A DNA stretch of 23,755 bases from a virus. The notes beneath the pieces are model-generated. The model made no database searches. It was given only the letters and a program-made list of their open reading frames with translations, and had not been told where the DNA came from. Where the stretch lies: IMG/VR virus record IMGVR_UViG_3300050011_000271, positions 1 to 23,755 of that record; one strand, 5' to 3'. This document shows, one piece after another, positions 4,247 to 22,439 of this stretch; position 1 is the stretch's first letter, and each line of letters starts with the position of its first letter. The position numbers and the translations under genes are program-made.

Positions 4247-5494
4247 ATGGTTAATCCCTATTTCAATTTTACAACCTCAAATAACGAACAAAATTTGGTA
4301 GAAGACCTGGTAATTGAATCAATCCAGATATATGGAATGGATATACAATATATCCCTACAACTTTTGTGGATTACAGTAAACTATTCGGTGAAGATCCTC
4401 AACGAGCCTTTTTATCTTCATATACAATTGAAGCTTATTTTGAAAATGTTGAAGGATTCATGGGAGATAAAAATTTCCTAAACAAACTCGGATTAAATAT
4501 AGATAAGCAGGCTACATTTATCATATCAAAAAGGCGTTTTGATGAAGAAGTTTTAGGTATAAATTGGAAAGATGATTGGGATCCTACAATAACATATAGT
4601 TTAAATGATGCCGTACGTTATCAGGGAGTTGGTCCTGTGCCTGGGATTTATATTAATCGTGTAGATGGTAATGTTAATAATGTACCAGGGACAGATTTTT
4701 TGACATTAGCAATAGAAGATACAACCAATTTAGTATCTTTAACTTTAAATTATGTATCTGGTGTATTCGACCCCGAGGATATTATTGTTGGACAAACAAG
4801 TAATGCTCTTGCAACTGTGATTAGTTTTGATGGTACAATATTAATTTTACAACCCACAACAAATACCGGATCATTTATTATAGGGGAGGTTATTTTGGAT
4901 TCCAGTACCACCCAACTAAATACTGTTGCAACTGGTACCATTACTGCAATAGATCCATATGTAATAGCAAATTCATTTAGACCCGGCGATATTTTAAGTG
5001 GCGCTGTAAGTAATGCAAGTGCGGTTGTAGTGAGTTTTAATAGTTATACGAATGTATTGCAAATTACAAATGCACGGGGATTATTTTTATATGGAGAAAA
5101 TCTTTTAAATATAACAAATGGCGCGAAAGCTGAAATTTTAAATGTTATCATGATTCCTAATATTTCTCCAAGTAACTGGAAAGTTATGGATCAAGTTAGC
5201 CCAGGAAAAGGTGGTTTAATATATCTCCCGGTTACCCATGATCTTTTTGAAATTTTATTTGCAGACCACGAAGAAGTTTTTTATCAATTAGGTAAAATTT
5301 ATGTCTGGAAAATAACTTGTGAGAAATACCGTTTTAGTCATGAAAAAATTGATACAGGTATTCTTGATATTGATTCAATTGCCAAAAAATTGGAAAATAA
5401 TGATAGTGTGGAAAATGATCCATTAGCAGATAATGAAGTTGTTGAACGTAGGGTTGAAGATTTTCTGAACCTGGACTCGAAAGCACCATTTTAA
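4247..5494 (+). CDS. 14: gp14-like neck protein with large inserted beta domains
   Basis: Homologue of T4 gp14, which with gp13 forms the neck between the filled head and the tail. Residues 1-104 follow T4 gp14 closely (NPYFNF, the ESIQ helix start, FGED, YFENVEGF) and residues about 318-360 match its second half (IYLP, LFEI, FYQLG). T4 gp14 has 256 residues; this one has 415. The difference is an insertion at about 105-317: a WxxxxxYxxxDxVxYxG segment (107-148) like small carbohydrate-binding modules, then two related beta repeats (about 172-216 and 243-286, with GxTSNAxAxVxSF). The start is the first ATG; its ribosome site is weak. No gp13 lies directly upstream. Confidence 0.9.
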   Translation: MVNPYFNFTTSNNEQNLVEDLVIESIQIYGMDIQYIPTTFVDYSKLFGEDPQRAFLSSYTIEAYFENVEGFMGDKNFLNKLGLNIDKQATFIISKRRFDEEVLGINWKDDWDPTITYSLNDAVRYQGVGPVPGIYINRVDGNVNNVPGTDFLTLAIEDTTNLVSLTLNYVSGVFDPEDIIVGQTSNALATVISFDGTILILQPTTNTGSFIIGEVILDSSTTQLNTVATGTITAIDPYVIANSFRPGDILSGAVSNASAVVVSFNSYTNVLQITNARGLFLYGENLLNITNGAKAEILNVIMIPNISPSNWKVMDQVSPGKGGLIYLPVTHDLFEILFADHEEVFYQLGKIYVWKITCEKYRFSHEKIDTGILDIDSIAKKLENNDSVENDPLADNEVVERRVEDFLNLDSKAPF

Positions 5495-5502: not shown

Positions 5503-5525
5503 TGTATATTAACGGAGAAAATTAG

Positions 5526-6947
5526 ATGTTGAAAAAATTATTATTGTCGTTTATTTTTTGTGTATTAATTGTTCATGCACAACCTGGTATTATTTCATTT
5601 CCTTGGGCTTCAGGGCCTTTGAGTGCCATACCAGCAAAATGTTTTGTAAGTCAACCTTATTTTGCTACTGATGCACCTGCTGGACAAAACATTTATGTTG
5701 GAACAGTTGCAACGGGAACACAAAGTGGAAATGCAAATGGTTGTATGTGGACCCATTGGACATCGGGTACACCCGGGCCCGTTGGACCTCCAGGGCCTCC
5801 TGGACTTAGTGTACAAGGATCCATAGGACCCGTTGGACCCGTTGGGCCCGTTGGACCAATAGGGCCCGTTGGACCCGTTGGACCAATAGGACCCGTTGGA
5901 CCAATAGGACCCATAGGACCTGCTGGACTTGGTGGACCACCAATTACGCGGACCGTTGCTGGTTGTCCCGTAGGTTATGGTGATATGTATTGGAATAGTC
6001 CTGTTAATTTATTGCCGGTAGTAATGGCAAGTAATCAAATGATTACATCTTTAGGTACAGGTAATTTATGGCCATCACCTGAATTTATATTGAATGTGGG
6101 TGATAATACTACTCCAACAACACCAAGTTATCTTATGCAATGGGATCAAACAGATCCAATGGAATTTGACTCGGGAAATTATCCTATGACTCCTAATACT
6201 TATGTGAGTGGGTATGTATTTGGAGCCCCACCTCTTGTAAGTAATGCGGTAAGTGGAGGCGACAACCATGTGTTGATGTTAAACAGTTCAATTTGTTTTG
6301 AGTATGAAACTTACGCCCTTCAAAATAATGTACCTCCATATCATAATGGTACAGGCACAATTATAGATTGGAGAGATTATAGACTCAGATCAGCCCAAAA
6401 ATTTCAAACAGTACCGGGCGATTCAGCCGGAATGGATAATGGAACTTGGAGCGGTATGCCAATTTATCCTTTCGTGTTAACTCACCAAGAGGTATACAGC
6501 GGCCAACCAATCGTTCATGGGATGAGAATCGCATTTTCGAAAACACAAGGTTCCGGTAGTTATCAATGGCCGGCTTTACATGGTTGTTGTTTAACGGGTA
6601 CTTCTCATATTAATGCAGGGACCACATTTAGATTAAAAGCTAGTTTTGATACCAATACTTGTGGTTACAAAGAAAATGTAGGGCAACCTTTCCCTGTCCT
6701 GGTTAAGAATGTCCTTACTGCTTTACAGGTTTATGGTATGTATTATACTGATAATACAAATTATCCAGGAAGTATTGGAACCGATGCAGATCAAGCTTGG
6801 GGAGATCCAAATCTTTCAACAAGTGATGCTTGGGTTTTTGCTGGATGGTTACATTGTATACCATTTAGTGCTTTAGAAGTAGTAGATAACACACCGCGAG
6901 TTATAAGTGTAACCAGTGGACAGGTACAAACATTTATACCGAGATAA
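5526..6947 (+). CDS. Exported collagen-like protein with bacterial exoprotein-like C-terminus
   Basis: Residues 1-18 are a Sec signal peptide (MLKK, hydrophobic core, VHA/QP). A short Cys-containing segment follows, then Gly-X-Y collagen repeats (about 81-136, mostly GPV and GPI). The rest (about 145-470) resembles, from memory, a family of secreted proteins in soil bacteria, with motifs in the same order: LP near the start, a [10 protein letters not shown] stretch, [38 protein letters not shown] and a final ALEVVD. That family has no function I can name. The gene sits between gp14 and gp15, five bases from gp15, so it is probably expressed late. It may be a surface fibre or a secreted product. 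Confidence 0.8.
5766..5932 (+). repeat. Collagen Gly-X-Y repeat tract
   Basis: The DNA consists of 9-base units (GGACCCGTT, GGGCCCGTT, GGACCAATA) repeated many times with only synonymous or Val/Ile changes. It is richer in G/C than the flanks, and because GGNCCN units are nearly self-complementary it reads as collagen-like on the other strand as well. Such tracts change length easily by slippage. Confidence 0.85.
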
Positions 6948-6952
6948 TATTT

Positions 6953-7720
6953 ATGTTACGAGAGGAACCTTTTAATTTTCACACTATACAGAAGATAACT
7001 GAAACTTTTGGTTTTTTATTTGGAGATATTACTATTGAAAGGATTGATCCTAAAACTTCTGCGGTGAAACGTATTAAGGTTCCTATAAGTCAATCAGCTA
7101 AAGAAAAATGGGCGGTTCGTATGGAAGCTGATCCAAATGCAGGTGATGAATCAAACCAAAGACATGTCCAAATTATTTTACCTCGTATGGGTTTCGATTT
7201 AACTAATTTTCATTTTGATGCAAAAAGAAAATTACCTACAATTAATTATAGAGTGTCTCCTTCAGGAAATGGTCCATCTGCATTGGTCCAATTAACTCCT
7301 CTTCCTTGGATATTTGATTACTCTTTATATCTCCAAGCACGTACATTAAGCGATTCTTATGCTATTGTAGAACAAATTTTAGCCTTTTTTCGTCCTGACT
7401 ATACAGTTCCTATAATTGATATACCGCCTATGAATAGTCATAGGGATATAGTTTTTACTCTTTTAAATTGTTCTCATAGTGATTCTTATGAAGGTAATTT
7501 TCAAGATAAACGTGTTATTGAATGGCAATTTGATTTTCAAGCCCAAGCATATATTTACCCTCCAATCAAGATAAAACCTGTTATTACGCAAGTTATTGTT
7601 GGTTTAGAAGATTCTGGTGATGATAATTTTAGTGGAGAAGTCATCGTTGCTGCTAATCCTAATACCGGTAATATTGACCAACCTTATTCCATAATTGTCA
7701 CTGATGTTGAACAGCCCTAA
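6953..7720 (+). CDS. 15: gp15-like tail completion and sheath terminator protein
   Basis: Homologue of T4 gp15, the hexameric protein that caps the contractile tail at the neck and stabilises the sheath. Length 255 aa against 272 in T4. Conserved features include FGDITIER near residue 25, the ILPRMGFDL segment, FDYSLYLQARTLSD followed by IVEQILAFFRPDY, the HRDIVF strand and RVIEWQFDFQAQAYIYPPIK near residue 190-205. It lies five bases after the collagen-like gene and nine before gp16, in the T4 gene order apart from that insertion. The C-terminal 45 residues are acidic and variable. Confidence 0.92.
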   Translation: MLREEPFNFHTIQKITETFGFLFGDITIERIDPKTSAVKRIKVPISQSAKEKWAVRMEADPNAGDESNQRHVQIILPRMGFDLTNFHFDAKRKLPTINYRVSPSGNGPSALVQLTPLPWIFDYSLYLQARTLSDSYAIVEQILAFFRPDYTVPIIDIPPMNSHRDIVFTLLNCSHSDSYEGNFQDKRVIEWQFDFQAQAYIYPPIKIKPVITQVIVGLEDSGDDNFSGEVIVAANPNTGNIDQPYSIIVTDVEQP

Positions 7721-7723
7721 ATA
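7717..7723 (+). promoter_or_regulatory. CTAAATA motif at the gp15/gp16 junction
   Basis: The motif contains the gp15 stop codon and lies six bases before the gp16 ATG. A transcript from it would start at or inside the gp16 start region, so promoter function is doubtful here. Confidence 0.2.
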
Positions 7724-7729
7724 ATTAAT

Positions 7730-8269
7730 ATGCCACGTGGAAGACCAAAGAAACAACCTCTTGCGACAAGGATTACAAGTGCTCTTGATATTGCCCAGGA
7801 AGAAGTTAATAGACTTTTACCTGTGGTTACACAAGAATCATTTGTGCCCGAAGTAATATATCCGGAGGTTGTTGTAGAAGAACCATTAAGAGTTGCAAAA
7901 GATGTTCGGGATGATTATGAATTTGCCCGGACAAATCTTCATGGTCTATTGGAAAAAGGTAATAAACTTTTATCTGGAATAACTAATTTGGCGGAAGAGA
8001 GCGATCATCCTAGAACCTTTGAGGTTGCAGGTAATATTTTAAAAGTATTATTTGAAGGCACACGGGAATTAATGACACTTCAAAAAGATATTCGGGATGT
8101 TGAAAAGAAAAATCCAATATCGGAAGCAACTACTTCGGTAACGGTAGAACATGCTGATGAAATTACAAATAATACCATTGTTGCAACTACTATGGATATG
8201 CTTGAAGTTTTACAAGAAATGAAACGAAAGAAATTAGAAGAACAAACAAATAAGGAAATAGGCAATTAA
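7730..8269 (+). CDS. 16: Small terminase subunit, gp16-like
   Basis: Homologue of T4 gp16, which forms a ring that recognises DNA ends and stimulates the gp17 motor. Length 179 aa against 164. The family's central helical pair is visible: DDYEFARTNLHGLLEKG (about 61-77), the SDHPRTFEVAGNILKVL segment (about 92-107) and the following LQKDIRDVEKK helix. Residues 1-10 are basic (PRGRPKK), which fits DNA contact. The C-terminal 30 residues are charged and helical. The large-subunit gene does not follow at once: a fibre-like gene of 1.5 kb separates the two. Confidence 0.9.
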   Translation: MPRGRPKKQPLATRITSALDIAQEEVNRLLPVVTQESFVPEVIYPEVVVEEPLRVAKDVRDDYEFARTNLHGLLEKGNKLLSGITNLAEESDHPRTFEVAGNILKVLFEGTRELMTLQKDIRDVEKKNPISEATTSVTVEHADEITNNTIVATTMDMLEVLQEMKRKKLEEQTNKEIGN

Positions 8270-8273
8270 ATTT

Positions 8274-9782
8274 ATGGCTAATCCAAATACCGCTGCATTT
8301 CCTACCAGTGTGGCAACCGATATTAATTTAACGGTAAATTCAGATAATGCATTTTCTGCATTAGCATCTCCTGGTGTTGCTGATGGTTCGGCAACAACTA
8401 TAGCTTTCGTTGATAATTCAGTTTTTAATGTACCTTGTTTAATTGCATTAGAAAATGAAGTTATTTTAGCCCGTGGTCCAATTAGTGGATCCCATAATAT
8501 TACTAATTGTGTACGTGGATTTTTAGGTTCAGGTGTATCCCATAGTACTGGTATTGTTGGTTACGCCTATATATTTTCATATACGGTTAACCAAATATGT
8601 GCTGAAATTAAAGCCATTGAAACCGCTTTGGGTGCGGGCATGGTAAATATACCCGGAACATCGGTTGGTGGAGATCTTTCAGGTACATTACCGGATCCGG
8701 ATGTAGTTTCAGTTGGTGGCGGCGCAGCTACAGCAAGTGGTATTGTGAGTGCTGTAAGTTTAAAACATACACAAAATACTGATATAGGTACATCAAGTGC
8801 TACTTTCCAAATAGGTACTAGTGGTAATAAAATCAAAGATGTTGGGACAGCATTACAAATAAGAAATTCTGGTGATTCTGATTATGCCAATCTTTCTGTA
8901 GCCTCTATTGCGACAAATGGTGATGCTTTGGGAGGAGATTTAACAGGAGATCTTCCTAATCCAGCATTAGCAGATACCGAAGTAGCGCCGGGCACATATG
9001 GTAATGGAACACAGGTTGGATCTTTTACTGTAGATGCAAAAGGAAGAATAACTACAGCATCAGGTGTTCCAATTACAGGTGCTGCACCCACTGGTTCCGC
9101 TGGAGGAGATATAACAGGTTCATATCCAAATCCAATATTAACAACTACAGGTGTTATTCCAGGGACATATGGTGATACAACTCATGTGGCATCTATTACT
9201 GTAGATGCAAAAGGAAGATTGTCATCAGCATCTGGTATAACAATCACTTATGGTACTGCAAGTGGTGATTTAACGGGACCTTATCCTAGTCCAACGATAG
9301 CTCTTGTTGGTGGTGTAACCGCGGCTAATGTGGCCGCCGGTGCAAATCTTGCTAATACTGCTGTTTCTACAGCTACTCCTAGCACAATTGTAATTCGTAA
9401 TCCTAGTGGTGATTTTGCTGGTCGAAATATTACTGGTAGAATTATAAGTGGAAATACATCACCTACCAAATCACTTGGGGCCGGATCTGGATCAGGATCA
9501 TCTGCTACTTTGGCTGGTAATGATATGGCTGGATCAATTACTTTAACAACAGGATCCGCACCAAGTACAGCTTCAACTATTATAACATTAACTTTCGGAA
9601 CATCATTAAGTTCATCACCTTCGGCTGTTGTTTTATCTCCAGGAAATGCAGCTACAGCCGCATTAACGACCAATCAACCATTTGTTAGTGGTTTAAATGT
9701 TGATGGATTTGGTTTGACTTCAAATGCTGTTGCTTTGATAAATGGAATAACATATGTTTGGTATTATGTTTGTATAGGATAA
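8274..9782 (+). CDS. Tail-fibre-like repeat protein, 502 aa
   Basis: The N-terminal domain (about 1-115) resembles virion-attachment domains of phage fibres, with a strand-rich region and CVRGFLGSGVSHS near residues 79-91. A shaft of repeats follows: a GGDLTG or SGDLTG unit with LPNP/YPNP occurs four times (about 131, 220, 277 and 330), and two copies extend through VDAKGR. The C-terminal 100 residues (GNDMAGSITL onwards) resemble the tip domain seen at the ends of various phage fibres. There is no signal peptide and no catalytic motif. It starts 4 bases after gp16 and ends 1 base before gp17, so it shares their transcript. It may bind the host surface or decorate the virion. Confidence 0.8.
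   Translation: MANPNTAAFPTSVATDINLTVNSDNAFSALASPGVADGSATTIAFVDNSVFNVPCLIALENEVILARGPISGSHNITNCVRGFLGSGVSHSTGIVGYAYIFSYTVNQICAEIKAIETALGAGMVNIPGTSVGGDLSGTLPDPDVVSVGGGAATASGIVSAVSLKHTQNTDIGTSSATFQIGTSGNKIKDVGTALQIRNSGDSDYANLSVASIATNGDALGGDLTGDLPNPALADTEVAPGTYGNGTQVGSFTVDAKGRITTASGVPITGAAPTGSAGGDITGSYPNPILTTTGVIPGTYGDTTHVASITVDAKGRLSSASGITITYGTASGDLTGPYPSPTIALVGGVTAANVAAGANLANTAVSTATPSTIVIRNPSGDFAGRNITGRIISGNTSPTKSLGAGSGSGSSATLAGNDMAGSITLTTGSAPSTASTIITLTFGTSLSSSPSAVVLSPGNAATAALTTNQPFVSGLNVDGFGLTSNAVALINGITYVWYYVCIG
8928..9240 (+). repeat. Tandem fibre repeat at DNA level
   Basis: Two copies of a roughly 140-base unit (8928-9068 and 9100-9240) encode the GGD(L/I)TG...VDAKGR repeat. They share an exact 22-base block (9026-9047 and 9197-9218), suggesting recent duplication or recombination within the fibre shaft. 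Confidence 0.75.
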
Positions 9783-21371: not shown

Positions 21372-22439
21372 ATGAATATGTTAAAAGTTTTGGTGGTCTT
21401 TAAGGATACCAAAATTGATTTGCCTACATCTTATCACCAAGGTCTTGGTGTTACAGCACGTAGATTAGCGGAAGCTCTAAACACGTTATATATAAAAGCG
21501 GATGCTTTTCCTATTAAAAATGGAGAATATTTATGGGCCAAATTAAATTCAGATTGGCAATCATATACTCATATTGTTTTTATGGCACCCTTTGTTGATG
21601 CGGGTTTTCTTGAACGGTTATTTTCGAATTTTCATATGCAGAAATTTACTATAATCTACCATTCTAATTTAGGTTTTTTGAGTGTAGATAGATTTTCGGT
21701 AAAATCATTAGAATTATATTTAAATCTTGAAAAAATATGTCCTAATTTTACCGTATCAACAAATTGCCTTGAATTATCTCGTAGTATAGAATTAGGTTCA
21801 GGTCGAAAATTCTGTTATCTTCCCAATTTATTTCCTCTACCCAACAAAAAACCTGATAGAAATTTTCAAATTTATCCTTTAAATATTGGTATATTTGGTG
21901 CAGCACGTGTATTAAAAAATTGGTTAACGGCAACTGTAGCTACGATGATAATAGCAAATAAGTTGAAGCAAAAGGTTAATTTCCATATATCCACACAGAG
22001 AGATGAAGGCGCAGAAAGTACTCGGGAAAATATAAAAAGTCTTTTAGCTTTAAATACTAATATTAATCTTATTGAAGTTCCATGGTTAGACCATGATAAA
22101 TTTCTAGATTATCTCCATGATAAAATGGATTTATTATTACAACCAAGTTTTACTGAAACATTTAACAATGTTACTGCCGAAGGATGTATTTCTGGTGTAC
22201 CTAGTGTTGTTTCTGATGCCATTGTTTGGGCTCCAGATAGTTGGAAAGCAAGATCTGATAGTGCCACTTCGGTTGCCGAAGTAGGAATGGATCTTTTAAA
22301 TGATCCTGGTGCTTATAAAGATGGATGGAAAGCTTTAACTAAATACAATAAAGATGCAAGTAAAATTTGGTTAAAATGGTTAGGGGCAAAAGATGAGTCA
22401 AGTATTTTCCAACGAATCTCAAAATTATGGAGCTCTTAA
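21372..22439 (+). CDS. GT-B (GT4-like) glycosyltransferase, 355 aa
   Basis: Two Rossmann-like halves are visible. The N-terminal one starts at LKVLVVF (4-10) and includes a Gly-rich loop near 24-26 typical of acceptor-domain starts. The C-terminal one begins at NIGIFGAAR (171-179) and contains the GT4-type E-x7-E motif, E262 to E270 in TETFNNVTAEG, followed by SGVPSVVSDA. This predicts a retaining transferase using a nucleotide sugar. The acceptor is unknown: capsid or fibre protein is suggested by the late promoter and gp23 neighbour, modified DNA or host glycan are alternatives. T4 alpha/beta-glucosyltransferases lie elsewhere and are not similar at motif level. The next gene starts inside its last 47 bases. 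Confidence 0.8.
   Translation: MNMLKVLVVFKDTKIDLPTSYHQGLGVTARRLAEALNTLYIKADAFPIKNGEYLWAKLNSDWQSYTHIVFMAPFVDAGFLERLFSNFHMQKFTIIYHSNLGFLSVDRFSVKSLELYLNLEKICPNFTVSTNCLELSRSIELGSGRKFCYLPNLFPLPNKKPDRNFQIYPLNIGIFGAARVLKNWLTATVATMIIANKLKQKVNFHISTQRDEGAESTRENIKSLLALNTNINLIEVPWLDHDKFLDYLHDKMDLLLQPSFTETFNNVTAEGCISGVPSVVSDAIVWAPDSWKARSDSATSVAEVGMDLLNDPGAYKDGWKALTKYNKDASKIWLKWLGAKDESSIFQRISKLWSS

Follow-up and report, generated by a model that had tools for sequence, protein, structure and literature searches.

Phages of the T4 and T5 types provide the closest described cases of phage proteins that leave the host cytoplasm. Llp of T5 is an exported receptor blocker (PMC9586334). T4-like phages make use of Sec, with the antiholin RI of T4 carrying a cleavable signal peptide (PMC8385771). 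Collagen-like proteins are known from prophages of E. coli O157, but a signal peptide is not mentioned for them (PMC3368898). In the literature searched, no report of a collagen tail fibre with a signal peptide was found. The gene described here encodes a collagen tract together with a predicted signal peptide. It resides in a 23.8-kb IMG/VR virus record of a T4-like soil phage, which is 23,755 nt long and is referred to as the window.

The gene and its genomic context

The gene order of the window is of the T4 type (gp14, gp15, gp16, gp17, sheath, tube and portal onward). The gene under study is placed between gp14 and gp15, with gaps of 31 nt and 5 nt, respectively (Table 1). That one gene at this position combines a signal peptide, a collagen tract and a C-terminal domain had been originally predicted, and this is what the ORF analysis, Pfam and a heuristic signal peptide scan found. 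An assembly artefact was considered and is ruled out by the intact frame, the GC3 of 0.23, which is that of the phage, and the flanking gp14 and gp15; it is also countered by a second phage with an identical architecture (see below).

A gene of this kind is missing between gp14 and gp15 in two related contigs of the T4-like type (L004 and L011), so the gene is dispensable. In a third one (L005:1-474), the stretch directly ahead of gp15 holds a different small ORF with a signal peptide (202-474) as well as the terminal part of another ORF. Because this slot is filled differently in L005 and is without such a gene in L004 and L011, it may be an insertion point that accepts genes for exported proteins. 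The absence from related contigs would also suit a recently captured passenger (moron) that has no adaptive role for the phage. We consider this highly improbable, as the base composition fits the phage, the frame is intact, and an unrelated phage has kept the architecture, with an identity of about 51%.

Several other features were observed. In L006-L010, gp15 is immediately preceded by a giant ORF, which measures 1425 aa where it is complete. The large terminase ORFs of L004, L005 and L011 are split and are followed by intein-like or endonuclease-like frames. The window codes for a second probable exported protein (779-1144, + strand, 121 aa) with the signal peptide MHKLFSKCIMVIGLFLFVGTFMVSTVNA^A and seven cysteines in the mature part; it has no match in Pfam or PHROG. 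Between the genes for the small and large terminase subunits lies an inserted ORF of 502 aa (8274-9782, + strand), which is fibre-like, has GDLTG-type repeats and is devoid of a signal peptide. L008 contains a comparable ORF after its small terminase gene (6289-7809). The ORF directly after the major capsid gene (21372-22439, + strand) is, judged by motif, presumably glycosyltransferase-like.

Table 1. Features of the gene, its neighbours and its product in the window, and runs of fibre-like ORFs with signal peptides in other phage contigs.
Feature	Position	Strand	Remarks
T4-like neck protein gp14 (upstream neighbour)	4247..5494	+	PF11649, E 7.7e-32
Shine-Dalgarno GGAG	5514..5517	+	8 nt ahead of the ATG of ORF 5526-6947, read directly
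ORF, signal peptide-collagen-adhesin-like protein	5526-6947	+	473 aa
Predicted Sec signal peptide, residues 1-18	5526..5579	+	VHA^Q; heuristic n/h/c-region scan
N-terminal module, residues 19-80	5580..5765	+	62 residues, with C39 and C73
Collagen tract, residues 81-139	5766..5942	+	5 + 14 G-X-Y triplets, one interruption
Exoprotein/tail-adhesin domain, residues 146-456	5961..6893	+	~310 aa; tblastn, HMM envelope, model pTM 0.82
C147, family cysteine 1 (column 1)	5964..5966	+	Cys in 96% of bacterial members (90 bacterial alignment rows)
C257, family cysteine 2 (column 107)	6294..6296	+	Cys in 98% of bacterial members (90 bacterial alignment rows)
C379, subfamily cysteine	6660..6662	+	window, L002, L117
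C444, subfamily cysteine	6855..6857	+	window, L002, L117
T4-like gp15 tail-sheath stabiliser (downstream neighbour)	6953..7720	+	PF16724, E 2e-51
Fibre-like ORFs with signal peptides, G001	L102:1-4033	-	
Fibre-like ORFs with signal peptides, G760	19643-28496		
Fibre-like ORFs with signal peptides, G761	27228-33555		

Signal peptide, N-terminal module and collagen tract

The first 18 residues contain two lysines and an unbroken hydrophobic core ahead of the predicted cleavage site (heuristic scan). A lipoprotein signal is absent: Cys12 is located within the hydrophobic core, and there is no cysteine at the predicted cleavage site. The subsequent module bears weak similarity to one in a secreted protein from Terriglobia (L140; phmmer E 5e-4). 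It is followed by 19 G-X-Y triplets at residues 81-95 (five) and 98-139 (14). This tract scores just below the gathering score of PF01391 (E 3.1e-5; 24.1 bits, with 27.2 bits required) and is matched by PHROG tail-fibre profiles. Outside the collagen tract, the protein has no match in PHROG or Pfam, and thus no known N-terminal tail-attachment domain.

The C-terminal domain belongs to a secreted bacterial family

Residues 145-470 have no match in Pfam, PHROG, NCBIfam or among PDB sequences. A tblastn search of plasmids with the domain alone returned hypothetical proteins from Streptomyces and Kitasatospora (E 4e-17 and 2e-17; family members WP_159395844.1 and WP_331722672.1). The alignments cover 94-98% of the query and are alignable throughout. 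Judged by sequence, the homology of this region to a secreted bacterial family is far beyond chance and is confirmed. The bacterial exoprotein family that had been proposed is real.

A first profile scan of genome contigs with alignment A1 as query returned nothing. A later scan of bacterial genomes, with a profile built from the bacterial matches, succeeded and revealed at least 483 bacterial loci. These are distributed over Actinomycetota, Chloroflexota, Acidobacteriota, Deinococcota, desulfobacteria and others. Many of the 80 bacterial loci that were retained start with a signal peptide or a lipoprotein signal when read by eye. In the loci L022-L101, the domain is sometimes part of proteins that also contain fn3, TIG, Kre9/KNH or beta-helix domains.

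For the domain from the window, AlphaFold returned a model with a pTM of 0.82 based on 44 sequences; a family member from Bryobacteraceae reached a pLDDT of 94.8 and a pTM of 0.92. Neither model matches a PDB fold at E <= 0.001, so the family appears to represent an unsolved fold. The profile search and structure prediction that had been suggested for this region yielded bacterial homologues and a model, but neither a Pfam or NCBIfam entry nor a PDB fold. Five clear matches were obtained among predicted viral structures (E 6e-13 to 1e-6). They include the minor tail protein of Gordonia phage Guillaume (Foldseek E 2e-12) and a Caudovirales protein annotated as 'Parallel beta-helix repeat'. The notion of a purely host-type domain is not supported, as the domain also occurs in Gordonia minor tail proteins and in other phage proteins without a signal peptide.

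The window protein keeps the family-invariant residues D246, H248, E261, H331, R334, H352, R369 and D409. Across alignment A4, including the window, D, H, E, H, R, R and D are invariant, and 23 of the 35 conserved polar columns are kept by the window domain. Because the family-invariant polar residues are retained, the domain has probably kept its capacity for binding or catalysis.

Phage copies of the domain and their phylogeny

Phage copies without a signal peptide are the Gordonia minor tail proteins (phrog_17388), a protein of Microcystis phage Mae-JY09 and L021/L144, the latter two being the same contig, where the domain copy adjoins an endolysin. Copies with a signal peptide are encoded in the window, in L002/G001 and in the contigs G760, G761 and G762; large terminases are present in G761 and G762. 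L002/G001 is an unrelated phage of 62% GC, which has its own portal, large terminase and neck protein. Its protein has the same order of signal peptide, collagen tract and domain, with 51% identity to the window protein.

In a maximum likelihood tree, the copies from the window and from L002 are sisters (support 100/100). Next to this pair branches L117 (99/94), a protein with a signal peptide that is encoded on a Terriglobia chromosome. A prophage origin of L117 was considered and rejected, because the surrounding ORFs, inspected by eye, are TetR-like, LysE-like and peptidase-like and correspond to an ordinary chromosome. The proteins from the window, L002 and L117 have a C-terminal insertion in common (..TC......G..FP.., ..DPN..W.F.GW.HCI..). 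The simplest history would be that the domain was captured from, or exchanged with, acidobacterial exoproteins, with either direction being possible. The relatives of the domain are the sole indication that the host may belong to Terriglobia. For host assignment, the signal-peptide ORF from L005 was also searched in 250 Terriglobia genomes and matched none of them.

Large fibre-like ORFs that start with signal peptides are consecutive in G001 and G760, and several are close together in G761 (Table 1). Within these runs, there is one match to a GDSL hydrolase and one to CBM5/12, both under the Pfam gathering score. Such neighbours might indicate that the window protein is an exported carbohydrate-active enzyme, which processes matrix or capsule, rather than a binder. 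The strictly invariant D, H, E and R residues of the family would agree with this, as would the occurrence of the domain on the bacterial protein L136, the opening region of which we take to resemble subtilase propeptides. However, no enzyme family or fold was matched, and the invariant residues may be structural. An enzymatic role is thus considered very unlikely.

Cysteines and the question of export

Both family cysteines are kept in the window and in L002. Neither is found in the phage copies without a signal peptide that were examined (Gordonia, Mae-JY09 and L144). The number of cysteines in the mature protein is even in each case (eight in the window, six in L002, eight in L117). Cysteines make up 1.8% of the mature window protein (eight in 455 residues) and 0.52% of the other window proteins that entered the comparison; the P of 0.003 is nominal and uncorrected for the choice of this gene. 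Because the family cysteines are kept in the collagen proteins with signal peptides and are lost in copies without a signal peptide, the pattern favours true export and folding where disulfides form. This argument is not absolute because L143 and L145, phage copies with a signal peptide, do not have the cysteine pair.

Further points speak for export: the signal peptide is found at a start with a supporting ribosome-binding site, the protein order recurs in the unrelated L002, the closest bacterial sister also has a signal peptide, and other phage contigs carry blocks of signal-peptide fibre-like genes. The original suggestion that the protein may be exported instead of being built into the virion is partly supported by the recurrent signal peptide and the retained cysteines. 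The homology alone, however, is no argument against a role in the virion, because the domain also occurs in phage tail proteins.

The protein might instead belong to the virion, as a whisker-like fibre of the neck or collar with a collagen shaft and an adhesin tip. The N-terminus would then be a membrane-targeting or attachment segment, or it would be skipped. The position between two neck genes would suit such a fibre as well, phage fibres often have collagen shafts, the tract has PHROG tail-fibre matches, and the domain tips annotated minor tail proteins in Gordonia and other phages. These points are opposed by the absence of a known N-terminal tail-attachment domain in Pfam and PHROG, by a canonical signal peptide linked to a ribosome-binding site in two unrelated phages, by conserved cysteine pairs that are unlike the cytoplasmically assembled copies, and by the dispensability of the gene. 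We regard a neck fibre as rather unlikely. It is also conceivable that the protein is exported to the periplasm or surface and binds to particles while the cell lyses or afterwards, so that virions are decorated from outside. This would reconcile the signal peptide, the collagen shaft, the position in the tail operon and the use of the domain in tails, and it would agree with the gene blocks in G001, G760 and G761. Such decoration has no precedent in the literature searched, an attachment motif was not found, and we judge it to be clearly improbable. Judged by sequence, the protein could be released, remain at the cell surface or be bound to the particle.

Proposed function

The reading that we prefer is that of a Sec-exported, disulfide-stabilised surface or matrix adhesin, which is tail-fibre-like and has a collagen stalk. 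As a complete scenario, its chances of being right or wrong seem about equal to us. The protein would be made together with the neck and tail proteins and would cross the inner membrane via Sec, with removal of the 18-residue signal peptide. The collagen stalk would drive trimerisation, and disulfides would form upon folding in an oxidising compartment. The C-terminal domain, which would stem from Terriglobia-like secreted proteins or be held in common with them, may bind a host glycan or another ligand of the envelope or matrix. Both before lysis and after it, the protein would act outside the cytoplasm. By occupying or modifying surface ligands of the infected cell and of debris, it might prevent progeny or competing phages from being trapped. 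Best supported among these steps are the location with the neck and tail genes, Sec export with loss of the signal peptide, an oligomer with a collagen stalk, and an adhesin domain akin to bacterial exoproteins and to phage tail tips. That progeny are shielded by the occupation of host ligands is a guess, made by analogy with T5 Llp, which reaches this end in a different way.

It is tempting to speculate that this is a general strategy, in which some environmental phages export sets of tail-fibre-like proteins via Sec from the late structural region. Such proteins would function extracellularly or coat virions once the cell has lysed, and their domains would be exchanged with host exoproteins. 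We propose this only tentatively and consider it possible rather than probable. If export is real, signal-peptide 'tail-fibre' genes would represent a class of secreted phage adhesins and not annotation noise. This would change the prediction of virion proteins and the understanding of progeny protection or biofilm escape. A large domain family of secreted bacterial proteins from several phyla has also come to light. It is shared with phage tails and is missing from Pfam and NCBIfam, and a solved fold was not detected for it.

Comparison with known systems

The secreted bacterial family (Streptomyces/Kitasatospora and L117 from Terriglobia) shares with the window protein the domain at residues 146-456, the signal peptide, the family cysteine pair and most invariant polar residues. 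The bacterial copies examined are devoid of a collagen tract and are encoded on chromosomes or plasmids, whereas the window gene is encoded on a phage and has collagen. The C-terminal insertion of the window protein is, among the copies aligned, confined to the window, L002 and L117.

The Gordonia minor tail proteins of phrog_17388 (Guacamole gp30, Gibbles gp34) have the same predicted fold and are remotely similar to the window protein (HMM E 2e-13 to 6e-15). The relation exists only at the level of fold and remote HMM similarity, as the phrog_17388 profile from PHROG does not match the window protein. The Gordonia proteins lack the signal peptide, the collagen tract, the family cysteines and several of the invariant residues, all of which are present in the window protein.

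In collagen-like tail fibres of phages and prophages (PF01391; E. coli O157 prophage, PMC3368898), as in the window protein, a G-X-Y shaft leads to a tip at the C-terminus. The window protein has, however, no recognised N- or C-terminal fibre domains, and it has a signal peptide.

T5 Llp (PMC9586334) and T4 RI and Spackle (PMC8385771) are Sec-exported proteins of lytic phages, as is predicted for the window protein. They are small, whereas the window product has a mature size of 455 aa, a collagen stalk and no lipobox, and its export is a prediction. The window protein is not an ordinary one and is part of a pattern that recurs and is apparently undescribed.
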